16,098 bases of DNA from an uncultured Gammaproteobacteria bacterium (GTDB lineage Bacteria; Pseudomonadota; Gammaproteobacteria; Rariloculales; Rariloculaceae): contig CAMPKU010000085.1 of assembly GCA_946887385.1 (NCBI GenBank), positions 1 to 16,098 on the forward strand. Reading direction: 5' to 3'. The notes beneath the pieces are model-generated. The model was given only the letters and a program-made list of their open reading frames with translations, was not told the DNA's origin and did no database searches. The stretch's first letter is position 1; the number at the start of each line of letters is the position of its first letter. Both the position numbers and the translations under genes were made by a program. Shown piece by piece: positions 6,219 through 12,452 of this stretch.

Positions 6219-6950
6219 ATGACCACGTCCGCTCGAATCGTCTTCGCAGTCACCAGCGTTTTACTCGGCTTCGCACCGGGCGCCGCATCGGCGCAGCCGG
6301 ACTTCAGCGGGCTCTGGTTTCCGGCAGGGCGGCAGCAAGATCCGCCGCGCGCCCCGTACACTCCGGCCGCGCAGGCTGCGTTCGAGGCCTACGACGCGGC
6401 GTTCACGCTCGACGACGACCCGGGCCGTTACTGTATTTGGCCTGGCATGCCGCGCGCGGTGTGGGGCGCGCCGTTCACCGTGGAGATCCAGCAGCGGCCG
6501 CAGGACATCTCGATCTACTGGGAGGGCTACGGCATGTACCGGAAGATCTACATGGCCGATCACAGCCCGCCCGAGCCCGTGCTGCCCTCCGCGATGGGTC
6601 ACTCCGTGGCGCACTGGGAAGGCAGCACGCTCGTCGTCGAGACGACGAACCTGAAGCAGTATCCCTACATGACACGCATGGCGACGTCGTCCGACGCGCA
6701 CGTCGTGGAGCGCCTCCGGCTCGAGGAGCGCGACGTCGACGGTCAAAAGACGAAGTTCATCGTCAACGAGCTCGTGCTCACGGATCCGAAGGTCTATACC
6801 ACCCCCATCAAGATCACTGCCACGCTGCGCCATCGCCCCGACTTGCAGCTTCTCGAGTACACGTGCACGGACGCTCTGTGGGACGAATACTTGAGCGAGC
6901 GCGGTCTCACGCTGCCCGACATGGATGCGCTACCGGAACCGCGGAACTGA
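6219..6950 (+). CDS. Exported 'DFSGLW/WEGxTLVVE' family protein (copy 1, divergent)
   Basis: A 243-residue protein of an uncharacterised exported family. The signal peptide MTTSARIVFAVTSVLLGFAP ending GAASA is followed at once by QPDFSGLWFP. Shared family marks are PDFSGLW (27-33), Cys72 in RYCIWPGMP, SIYWEGYGMYRKIYM (98-112), GHSVAHWEGSTLVVETTN (127-144), LTDPKVYTTPIKI (187-199) and LLEYTC with Cys216. These line up with the proteins at 10242 and 11583, which are much closer to each other than to this one. Two Cys residues are the only ones in the mature protein and could form a disulfide in the periplasm. No catalytic motif is apparent to me. The gene is followed after four bases by a DUF6152 gene, the partnership also seen at 10242-12452, so the two products probably act together. 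Confidence 0.78.
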   Translation: MTTSARIVFAVTSVLLGFAPGAASAQPDFSGLWFPAGRQQDPPRAPYTPAAQAAFEAYDAAFTLDDDPGRYCIWPGMPRAVWGAPFTVEIQQRPQDISIYWEGYGMYRKIYMADHSPPEPVLPSAMGHSVAHWEGSTLVVETTNLKQYPYMTRMATSSDAHVVERLRLEERDVDGQKTKFIVNELVLTDPKVYTTPIKITATLRHRPDLQLLEYTCTDALWDEYLSERGLTLPDMDALPEPRN

Positions 6951-6954
6951 CGCC

Positions 6955-7332
6955 ATGCAGAAGCGATCGATCGGCCTGCTCGTCGCGGCGTTCGCAGCGG
7001 TGACGCTGCCCGCGGCGGCGCATCACTCGTTCGCGATCTACGATATGGAGCAGAACATCGCGTTCGACGGCGTGGTCGAGGCGCTGAAGTTGCGCAACCC
7101 GCACATGGCGCTCACGCTCACGGTCACGAAGAGCGATGGCACCACGGGCACGATCAATTTCGTGGAAGGAGCGCCGGCCAACATGATCGTGCGTATGGGC
7201 TTGAATCCCGCCGATCTAGCGGCGGGCCAGCCGATCAAAGCGATCGGCGCGCCGCTCCGCGACGACCCCAATGCCTATTTTTTGAAGGCAGTGATCCTGC
7301 CCGACGGCCGGCGCTTCACTTTCGTGAACTAG
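6955..7332 (+). CDS. DUF6152 family exported protein (copy 1)
   Basis: A 125-residue small exported protein. The signal peptide ends PAAA and the mature protein would begin HHSFAIYD (His23-His24), the hallmark AHHSF start of DUF6152. Further family marks are GVVEALKLRNPHMALTL (39-55), RMGL, a run corresponding to the GDxVxVxG strand (LAAGQPIKAIGAP) and a final DGRRF. The alternating short beta strands suggest a small beta-barrel of OB-fold style; that is my inference. The biochemical role of DUF6152 is not known to me. The start at 6955 lies four bases after the upstream 'DFSGLW' stop, so the two genes form one transcription unit. Its 3' end overlaps the convergent GIY-YIG gene by 17 bases. 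The N-terminal His pair might bind copper. Confidence 0.82.
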   Translation: MQKRSIGLLVAAFAAVTLPAAAHHSFAIYDMEQNIAFDGVVEALKLRNPHMALTLTVTKSDGTTGTINFVEGAPANMIVRMGLNPADLAAGQPIKAIGAPLRDDPNAYFLKAVILPDGRRFTFVN

Positions 7333-7663
7333 CGTAGAGCGCACGCTTCGCCGCACGCGGCAAGCGTTTGATCTGAAGCTCGCGCCGCAGCGCTGCGCCG
7401 CGATCCGCGGCTGATTCCGAATAGACGAGCTTGACGGGCAAGCGCTGCCGCGTGTATTTGGCGCCGGCGCCTTCGTTGTGGGCGGCGATGCGCGCGCGGA
7501 GGTCTTTCGCCACGCCCGTGTATAGCGTGCGGTCGGCGCAGCGAACGATGTAGACGTGCCAGCTGACGCGGGCGCTCCGGCGGTCGGCTCCTAGAGGCCG
7601 AGCGCGTACAACAGCGTGTCGTTGTACATGATGAAGCGGCCCATGACGATGACCATGATCCAC
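7316..7663 (-). CDS. GIY-YIG nuclease superfamily protein (UPF0213-like)
   Basis: The C-terminal 83 residues form a complete small GIY-YIG domain: HVYIVRC and TLYTGVAKDLRARIAAHN (the two half-motifs and catalytic-site Arg), GAGAKYTRQRLPVKLVYSE, then GAALRRELQIKRLPR with the conserved Glu. Stand-alone members are small predicted nucleases of unclear role. The start is a puzzle. The only canonical in-frame start is a GTG at 7663, giving 115 residues with an odd 32-residue leader inside the upstream membrane gene (73-base overlap). Homologues normally begin MSW-, and here VSWHVY begins with GTC at 7567-7565, seven bases after a GGAG. The real start may be a non-standard GTC, or GTG misread or mutated. 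The gene is last in the minus-strand operon and overlaps the DUF6152 gene tail to tail. Confidence 0.75.
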   Translation of the reverse strand: MDHGHRHGPLHHVQRHAVVRARPLGADRRSARVSWHVYIVRCADRTLYTGVAKDLRARIAAHNEGAGAKYTRQRLPVKLVYSESAADRGAALRRELQIKRLPRAAKRALYASSRK

Positions 7664-11166: not shown

Positions 11167-11173
11167 CATCACG

Positions 11174-11578
11174 ATGAAACGCGCTTCAACTTTGATGATC
11201 GCCGCTGCGGGCGCCTTATCCTTCACCGTTTCGGCATCGGCGCATCACTCGTTCGCGGCGGAGTTCGACCGCGACATGCCGGTCACGGTGACGGGCACGG
11301 TCACGAAGGTGGAATGGATGAACCCGCACGCGCGCTTTTACATCGACGCAAAAGAAGACGGCGGCGAGACCGTGAACTGGGACTTCGAGCTTGCGAGCCC
11401 CAATGGCCTCATGCGCCGCGGTTGGAATCGCAACTCGATGAAGATTGGCGACATGGTGACGGTGACGGGCCATCGCGCCAAGAACAATCCGCACGTCGGT
11501 AACGCGAGCACGGTGACGCTCGCCGACGGCAAGCGGCTATTCGCGGGCTCCTCGATCGAAAACGAGCCGGCCCAATAA
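11174..11578 (+). CDS. DUF6152 family exported protein (copy 2)
   Basis: A 134-residue exported protein, more typical of DUF6152 than the copy at 6955. The signal peptide ends SASA and the mature chain begins HHSFAAEFD (His24-His25). It continues with VTGTVTKVEWMNPHARFYI (39-57), WDFELASPNGLMRRGW, the strand GDMVTVTGHRAKNNPH and LADGKRLF. The conserved order, AHHSF, G-V-x-x-x-x-W-x-NPHA, ExxxPxxLxRxGW, GDxVxVxG, matches the family from end to end. Start at 11174 is supported by an AAGGAG site. It lies between two 'DFSGLW' genes, 17 bases after the first and four before the second, so all three are certainly one transcription unit. Function is unknown to me; a periplasmic partner of those proteins is the natural reading. 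Confidence 0.87.
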   Translation: MKRASTLMIAAAGALSFTVSASAHHSFAAEFDRDMPVTVTGTVTKVEWMNPHARFYIDAKEDGGETVNWDFELASPNGLMRRGWNRNSMKIGDMVTVTGHRAKNNPHVGNASTVTLADGKRLFAGSSIENEPAQ

Positions 11579-11582
11579 GGCC

Positions 11583-12452
11583 GTGCGCTATTCGACGGCA
11601 GCCCACGCTGCACTGCGAATCGTTTGCGCGCCGCGCGCGCTCGTAGTTGCCGCGGCATTGGTCGCGGTGCTGCCCGCGACGGCGCAATGGCCGCTCCACG
11701 AGGCGAAGCGTGCGCCACGCAATGCCGACGGCGAGGTCAATCTCGAGGCTCCGGCACCGCGCACGGCCGACGGCCGTCCGGACTTCTCGGGCCTGTGGGA
11801 GCGGGTCGGCCCCGGCGGCGCGAATCCCAACTTCGACGCGCTGCAATCGGCGGACGGCGGCCCGCCCGCAGCCACGTTCTGGAATGCGGGTGCCGGCATC
11901 CGCGGCGGCCTGCCCTTCACACCGCTCGCGGGGCTGCTGCGCGACGAGCGGATGGCGGACAACCAGAAAAACAATCCCGATGCGCTGTGCCTACCGATGG
12001 GCCTCATGCAGCTGCATCTGCACCCTCAGCCTCGCAAGATCGTGCAGACGCCGAATCTGATCGTCATGATGTACGAAGGCAACGAGGGCCTGCGACAGAT
12101 CTTCTTGGACGGCCGCCCGCTGCCCAAGGTCGATGAGAACCTTCAGCCGTGGTGGTACGGCTATTCGGTGGGACGCTGGGAGGGCGATGAGCTCGTCGTC
12201 GAAACCGTCGGCTTCCGTGACGACGTGTGGCTCGACGTTCAAGGCAGCCCGCTCACCAGTGCAGGCAAGATGACGGAGCGCTTTCGCCGGCCGAATTTCG
12301 GTACGTTGCAGATCGATGTAACCATTGAAGATCCAATGGCTTACAAGCAACCGTTCACGGTTCGCGTGAACCAGAGGCTATTCCCCGACGCGGAGCTCAT
12401 CGAGTTCATTTGCCTCGAAAACGAGAAGTCCGTCCGCTTCTACGATCCCTAA
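11583..12452 (+). CDS. Exported 'DFSGLW/WEGDELVVE' family protein (copy 3)
   Basis: A 289-residue exported protein starting at GTG, four bases after the DUF6152 stop. The signal peptide has an unusually long N-region and a core ALVVAAALVAVLPATA. The mature part follows the copy at 10242 closely: PDFSGLW (66-72), NPDALCLPMGLMQLH (131-145, Cys136), PRKIVQTPNLIVMMYEGNEG, RQIFLDGRPLP, WWYGYSVGRWEGDELVVETVGF (190-211) and ELIEFICLENE (271-281, Cys277). From residue 116 on, by my count 129 of 174 positions are identical to that copy, which points to a tandem duplication around the DUF6152 gene. It lacks the long Pro/Ala linker of its sister. The Shine-Dalgarno sequence is poor, so it may rely on translational coupling. 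Function unknown. Confidence 0.78.
   Translation: MRYSTAAHAALRIVCAPRALVVAAALVAVLPATAQWPLHEAKRAPRNADGEVNLEAPAPRTADGRPDFSGLWERVGPGGANPNFDALQSADGGPPAATFWNAGAGIRGGLPFTPLAGLLRDERMADNQKNNPDALCLPMGLMQLHLHPQPRKIVQTPNLIVMMYEGNEGLRQIFLDGRPLPKVDENLQPWWYGYSVGRWEGDELVVETVGFRDDVWLDVQGSPLTSAGKMTERFRRPNFGTLQIDVTIEDPMAYKQPFTVRVNQRLFPDAELIEFICLENEKSVRFYDP

Follow-up and report, generated by a model that had tools for sequence, protein, structure and literature searches.

The P and D genes of the locus

The window analyzed here is a 16,098 nucleotide stretch of DNA from an uncultured gammaproteobacterium of the family Rariloculaceae (assembly GCA_946887385.1, contig CAMPKU010000085.1, positions 1 to 16,098 of the forward strand). 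It encodes members of two exported protein families, termed here P (recognized by a ‘DFSGLW’ motif) and D (DUF6152), which together are the subject of this work. Three P genes and two D genes are arranged in two groups, P-D and P-D-P:

6219–6950, + strand: P1, short (243 amino acid) form of the exported calycin-like protein
6955–7332, + strand: D1, DUF6152, exported OB-fold family (PF19649, 68.5 bits), with the sequence ...AAAHHSF at its signal junction
10242–11156, + strand: P2, exported calycin-like protein, 304 amino acids
11174–11578, + strand: D2, DUF6152 (PF19649, 111 bits), predicted mature N-terminus at H24 (HHSFAAEF...)
11583–12452, + strand: P3, exported calycin-like protein, 289 amino acids, GTG start

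An initial reading of the sequence alone (the sequence-only reading) had described these five genes and a spacing of 4–17 bases within each group, and both were borne out: gaps of 4, 17 and 4 bases separate P1 from D1, P2 from D2 and D2 from P3, respectively. Its assignment of D1 and D2 to DUF6152 likewise held, with both proteins passing the PF19649 cut-off of 27 bits, as did its description of all five products as exported (each of P1–P3, D1 and D2 begins with a hydrophobic, signal-like segment, as read from the sequence). P2 and P3 share 59% identity, P1 and P3 only 27% (E = 1e-15 in a single comparison) and D1 and D2 30%. No Pfam family matched P1–P3 at E ≤ 1, and the only NCBIfam match was a far sub-threshold one, for P3.

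A syntenic locus (L001; genomes and loci are cited by our own G and L numbers) is present in a metagenome-assembled genome (MAG) titled Gammaproteobacteria, and retains the gene order ABC1-ABC2-P-D-GIY-M-M-MFS-P-D-P-Ank-TonB-GFA. The P1, D1, P2 and D2 products of the window are 70–80% identical to their counterparts in that locus, and P3 60% (the latter homolog was found by tblastn; our scripted gene calling skips open reading frames (ORFs) containing N). A pyrroloquinoline quinone (PQQ) dehydrogenase that carries a cytochrome c domain immediately precedes P1 in L001.

D usually accompanies P in other genomes

P is a very large family: of 7998 candidates scored, 7964 matched P3 at E ≤ 1e-3, and at the same threshold 463 of 1079 candidates were relatives of P1. 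A pattern scan of a genome collection yielded 52 P loci. DUF6152 was found in all 28 of the P-bearing genomes searched in whole, at 24–98 copies each, and in none of 14 control genomes; those 28 were drawn from the 52 loci and picked for carrying P, and do not constitute a survey. In draws from two classes, DUF6152 matches were found in four of 185 genomes from the class of genome G013 (G013 itself, scored on 25 candidates, and three with a single copy) and in 43 of 151 genomes from the class of genome G010, where up to 30 candidates were scored per genome and copy numbers ranged from one to at least 30. Judged from these draws, the expansion is patchy and lineage-specific. A MAG titled Bordetella parapertussis (L026 and L044; G011 via L026) falls in the class of G010, and its title is probably wrong.

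We examined the adjacency of the two families in the genomes G013 (3.7 Mb) and G010 (titled Bryobacterales). G013 contains 98 D genes and at least 135 P matches, some of which are pieces of one gene; we estimate that it contains approximately 200 P and D genes in all. A same-strand P lies within 300 bp of 73 of those 98 D genes, and within 500 bp of 79, while random placement at 300 bp (1000 trials) gave a mean of 3.1 and a maximum of 9. The corresponding figure for G010 is 33 of 51 D genes, against a random mean of 1.3 and a maximum of 6. (Contig extents in these controls were taken from the matches and gene clustering was not preserved, so the controls are lenient.) Adjacency in other genomes, which the sequence-only reading had proposed to count, is thus far above random placement in both. 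The same relationship was observed for loci fetched by D alone: in 26 of 30, a same-strand P lies no more than 300 bp away (the exceptions being L053, L068, L075 and L079). Genes in part of the loci were called by our own scripts.

The converse adjacency is weaker. A same-strand D lies within 300 bp of 74 of the 135 P matches in G013, of 34 of the 141 in G010 and of 28 of the 99 unfused P ORFs in L001–L052. The claim that P ‘always’ occurs beside DUF6152 therefore fails for the remaining 61 matches in G013 and 107 in G010. These searches scored 150 of 185 candidates in G013 and 150 of 221 in G010, which makes the P counts lower bounds and the number of D genes without P an upper bound. D usually accompanies P, whereas P, as this weaker converse adjacency indicates, also exists without D.

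D–P fusions and correlated divergence

In G013, the open frame of 24 D genes also contains a P match, in every case in frame and with D first. Further D–P fusions were found in G010 (two) and in L029, L035 and L037 (one each); those of G013 and G010 were detected by equal open-frame lengths. D leads in every fusion found. Both orders occur among unfused neighbors, with P upstream of D in 32 cases and D upstream of P in 23 for G013, and D upstream of P in 21 and P upstream of D in 11 for G010. Other arrangements, in cultured strains, include D-D-P-TonB in Croceibacterium atlanticum and P-D-P-D in Sphingobium sp. TomTYG65, where a TonB receptor and a DUF6644-like pair adjoin the group.

The tree distances of D and P in G013 are correlated (r = 0.27 for all pairs, 0.42 for separate genes and 0.71 for fused ones), with none of 2000 permutations giving a value as high. 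This comparison comprised 47 of 53 pairs, including 12 of 16 fused ones, with short domain pieces left out; nearest neighbors agree for 16 of the 47. Such a correlation would be expected from co-duplication as well as from mutual adaptation. Adjacency above random in two genomes, D–P fusions and correlated divergence (with that alternative in mind) together lend strong support to the joint exported function proposed in the sequence-only reading, and we regard P and D as a well-supported exported pair.

Predicted folds of P and D

Fold models (for P3, model mea42d8bb5817, mean predicted local distance difference test score (pLDDT) 92.5) predict that P forms a single up-and-down beta-barrel of the lipocalin/FABP (calycin) type. 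A GXW motif in the first strand is the calycin signature, with an arginine near the C-terminus of calycins packing against its tryptophan, and the ‘DFSGLW’ motif corresponds to the GXW strand of the predicted P barrel (strand 36–41), in which G36 is invariant and W38 near-invariant among 57 sequences. G159 and D216 are also invariant and R137, E198, C102 and C243 near-invariant, while histidine is absent from the conserved columns. A sequence comparison of P with solved structures gave no match at E ≤ 1.

P is also found joined to other domains: to a metallo-beta-lactamase (L098, and L108 with a partial P match), to a glyoxalase/dioxygenase (L113), to beta-propeller domains (L105 and L050) and to a second P domain in tandem (L104). 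In three further cases (L097:5532–7442, L107:8881–10653 and L035:2–1720) P lies behind an unnamed N-terminal domain of approximately 350 residues, for which the two examples scanned gave no Pfam match; the P genes of this form in L097 and L107 immediately follow a D gene.

The corresponding model of D (D2, m6a64a556a8e7, pLDDT 86.2) is an OB-fold, with a five-stranded barrel and a helix between strands 3 and 4. Comparison of D with solved structures by sequence gave only three weak matches, the best at E = 0.067. We considered nucleic-acid binding, to which matches to SSB and PriB might point, and set it aside, given the export of D and given that function cannot be read from a common fold.

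Seven columns are invariant among 36 aligned D sequences (H1, H2, N27, P28, H29, E49 and G69). In a larger set of 127 sequences (including six repeats), 122 contain His-His 10–50 residues before [NA]PH (116 of 121 distinct sequences). The residue preceding the histidine pair in those 122 is alanine in 116, proline in five and serine in one. The five that miss the strict motif all display AHH, four of them with S, F or R before PH and one without PH. The strict pattern is present in 18 of 19 fusions examined, the remaining one having AHH with SPH. Predicted cleavage by signal peptidase would place this His-His at the mature N-terminus of D and, because D is first in all fusions, that end would stay free in them as well. 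Histidines that immediately follow a signal peptide have been described as natural chelators of metal (PMC12537917; PMC10952591). By analogy, D may bind a metal via its N-terminal His-His.

Neighboring genes

The remaining annotated features of the window are as follows; M1–M4 and the ankyrin-repeat and TonB-receptor genes were absent from the sequence-only reading:

419–1687: exported glucose/sorbosone dehydrogenase (GSDH, 318 bits)
1724–2056: DUF6496 protein, small, strongly basic and lysine/arginine-rich (82 bits)
2124–2630, + strand: M1, first of a second DUF6644-like membrane pair (PF20349, 19.9 bits, below cut-off)
2627–3115, + strand: M2, second of that pair (PF20349, 22 bits, below cut-off; scanned from base 2636)
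7316–7663, − strand: GIY-YIG ORF, sharing 17 bases with the end of D1; kept in L001
7591–8109, − strand: M3, DUF6644-resembling membrane protein (PF20349, 20.8 bits, cut-off 27); kept in L001
8123–8620, − strand: M4, membrane protein aligning with M3 and with DUF6644-annotated proteins (no Pfam match at E ≤ 1); kept in L001
8642–10072, − strand: MFS transporter, aromatic-acid/H+ symporter-like (MFS_1, 144 bits; TIGR00895, 304.2 bits); kept in L001 at 57% identity
12503–13336, + strand: exported ankyrin-repeat protein adjoining P3 (Ank_2, 105 bits); kept in L001
13333–15495, − strand: TonB-dependent receptor at the end of the cluster (PF00593, 101 bits; Plug, 53 bits); kept in L001 at 71% identity

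The sequence-only reading took the transporter, as a putative aromatic acid:H+ symporter (AAHS), as a hint that a small organic compound is handled. TIGR00895 is its best NCBIfam match, though the score lies below the cut-off of 418.55 bits, and the gene is retained in L001; the hint is weak.

Pfam families were tabulated for genes near to and far from the modules of G013, with 100 of 121 near genes covered (all but 16 genes of L115–L122 and five short genes) and, from the same stretches, 100 of the 101 far ones; each table gives the 25 most-matched families, and absence from it does not mean zero. PQQ dehydrogenases (PF01011) account for five of the 100 near genes and tannase/feruloyl esterases for three, and neither is among the 25 families for the distant genes. 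Cytochrome-type domains (two of 100 each) and the regulators IclR and MarR (two of 100 each) also appear near the modules. In a clustering of neighbors from 82 loci (30 of them approximately 3 kb in length) and the window, the commonest recurrent neighbor was a cluster represented by a PQQ dehydrogenase bearing a cytochrome c domain (15 genes from 13 loci). These neighbors, together with the domain fusions of P, suit periplasmic handling of diverse organic compounds, and are no proof of it.

PQQ dehydrogenase and DUF6644 were rejected as obligate partners, and the TonB receptor is not supported as a general one. PQQ dehydrogenases are above random near D only within 3 kb (12 of 31, p = 0.0045) and 5 kb (15 of 31, p = 0.004), and not within 1 or 2 kb. 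In the neighbor clustering of the 82 loci and the window, the TonB receptor of the window clusters only with that of L001. DUF6644 has five matches in G013 against 98 D genes. M1–M3 score below the DUF6644 cut-off of 27 bits and M4 gave no match; the four are described only as resembling that family. In both pairs of the window each protein has a conserved histidine early and a Gly-Arg late. A DUF6644 pair, one gene and then P-D are found in this order in Novosphingobium humi, where a 168 amino acid protein with a CxxCH motif adjoins the DUF6644-like pair. Exported ankyrin-repeat proteins recur beside P-D, in three of the 100 adjacent genes of G013, in the window, in L001 and at L083:11693–13231.

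A proposed role for the pair and its alternatives

The explanation that we favor, tentatively and at somewhat short of an even chance, is that P is a periplasmic small-molecule binder, D its docked, metal-bearing partner, and paralogy the means by which specificity is diversified. The molecule bound by the P barrel would be small and for the most part apolar or aromatic, and D would dock onto P in an arrangement mimicked by the D–P fusions. The free N-terminal His-His of D, possibly with the histidine of its PH motif and a glutamate, would bind a transition metal (copper most likely), which could help to hold or to oxidise the ligand of P. Each pair of paralogs would serve a separate compound, which would then go either to enzymes of the periplasm that oxidise or hydrolyse it or to a transporter in the inner membrane (the MFS carrier in the present locus). 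Single environmental bacteria contain dozens to about 100 versions of the two proteins, which probably serve to handle a wide range of small molecules beyond the inner membrane. We infer all three of the elements on which this depends: the ligand of P, the metal of D and the contact between them.

The main rival holds that the pair is itself a periplasmic enzyme, with P holding the substrate and supplying or sharing the catalytic site, D supplying the metal, and the many copies forming an enzyme family for many substrates. The fusions of P to metallo-beta-lactamase, glyoxalase/dioxygenase and propeller domains point in this direction, as do the PQQ dehydrogenases, tannase/feruloyl esterases and cytochrome-type proteins beside the G013 modules and the conserved G36, G159, D216, R137, E198 and two cysteines of P; but no catalytic motif was recognized in P, and histidine is not among its conserved columns. 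We consider this reading unlikely. A receptor function, in which ligand binding alters a membrane or regulatory partner, would fit an exported protein with a calycin-type barrel and has a precedent in VtrA/VtrC, a heterodimer that binds bile salt in a hydrophobic beta-barrel chamber (PMC4933562). However, the P and D sequences that were read contain no extra membrane anchor or cytoplasmic regulator domain, and regulators are rare among the 25 neighbor families (IclR and MarR, as given above); we assign this possibility a low probability.

An equally improbable alternative is that D, in the manner of CopC, carries copper or nickel and acts with the DUF6644-like membrane pair, while P would only stabilise it or deliver to it. 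Its His-His terminus would suit such a carrier, and DUF6644-like pairs occur near P-D in the window, in L001, in N. humi and on Sphingobium plasmids. The disproportion between D and DUF6644 in G013 argues against it; about 100 carriers of one metal per cell would be implausible, and the diversity of P would be left unexplained. Least probable in our view is that P and D form no physical partnership at all and have spread together through block duplication of pairs. Correlated trees are expected in that case too, but fusions are found in several genomes, both gene orders occur and pairs persist at 27–30% identity.

A further reading, which we regard as a long shot, is that P-D represents a new class of two-part periplasmic metallo-oxidases, in which a calycin barrel would present a specific organic substrate to a mononuclear metal (copper) held by the N-terminal His-His of an OB-fold partner. 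Up to about 100 substrate-specific copies per genome would then constitute, in some Acidobacteria and proteobacteria, a combinatorial arsenal against recalcitrant small molecules. Whatever the chemistry, two families of undescribed function account for approximately 200 genes in one 3.7 Mb genome, and DUF6152 alone reaches 24–98 copies in the 28 genomes searched, which leaves a sizeable share of the exported proteome of these bacteria unexplained. If the pairs are ligand-specific, any one of them could serve as a marker of a substrate in uncultured bacteria; a metal-binding D would add a further fold with an N-terminal-histidine site.

Comparison with known systems

Calycin barrels, N-terminal-histidine metalloproteins and expanded sets of periplasmic binders are each known; the P-D combination was not found described. 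Our literature search covered open-licence (PMC) papers, and in these no paper was found on DUF6152, DUF6644 or the P-D combination.

P resembles the calycins (retinoid, fatty-acid and bile-acid binding proteins and lipocalins) in its predicted barrel and GXW-type first strand. It differs from them in being exported, in a helical extra segment after the first strand, in the near-invariant C102 and C243 and in having a bacterial partner, D. The likeness of D is to metalloproteins with an N-terminal histidine (the histidine-brace proteins lytic polysaccharide monooxygenase (LPMO) and CopC, and DUF4198, DUF6702 and Ang-1/2), since its histidine directly follows the predicted signal peptide. In a histidine brace a second histidine completes a T-shaped geometry around copper; the candidate for this in D is the invariant H29. 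In contrast to the Ig-like sandwich reported for Ang-1, D is modeled as an OB-fold, and it has two terminal histidines; the OB-fold, PF19649 and lipocalins are absent from the main text of PMC12537917.

Exported proteins that have expanded within particular lineages are known from the solute-binding proteins of the tripartite tricarboxylate transporter (TTT) type, of which there are 434 (PMC5994714). P-D shares that feature with them and differs in being a two-protein module with fusions, for which no dedicated transporter was seen. The folds of the TTT proteins are unrelated to those of P and D. VtrA/VtrC offers a further parallel, as a periplasmic beta-barrel with a hydrophobic chamber (PMC4933562). 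There, VtrC is predicted to be a transmembrane protein and the heterodimer is formed from the periplasmic domains of both proteins, whereas the barrel predicted here is built by P alone.

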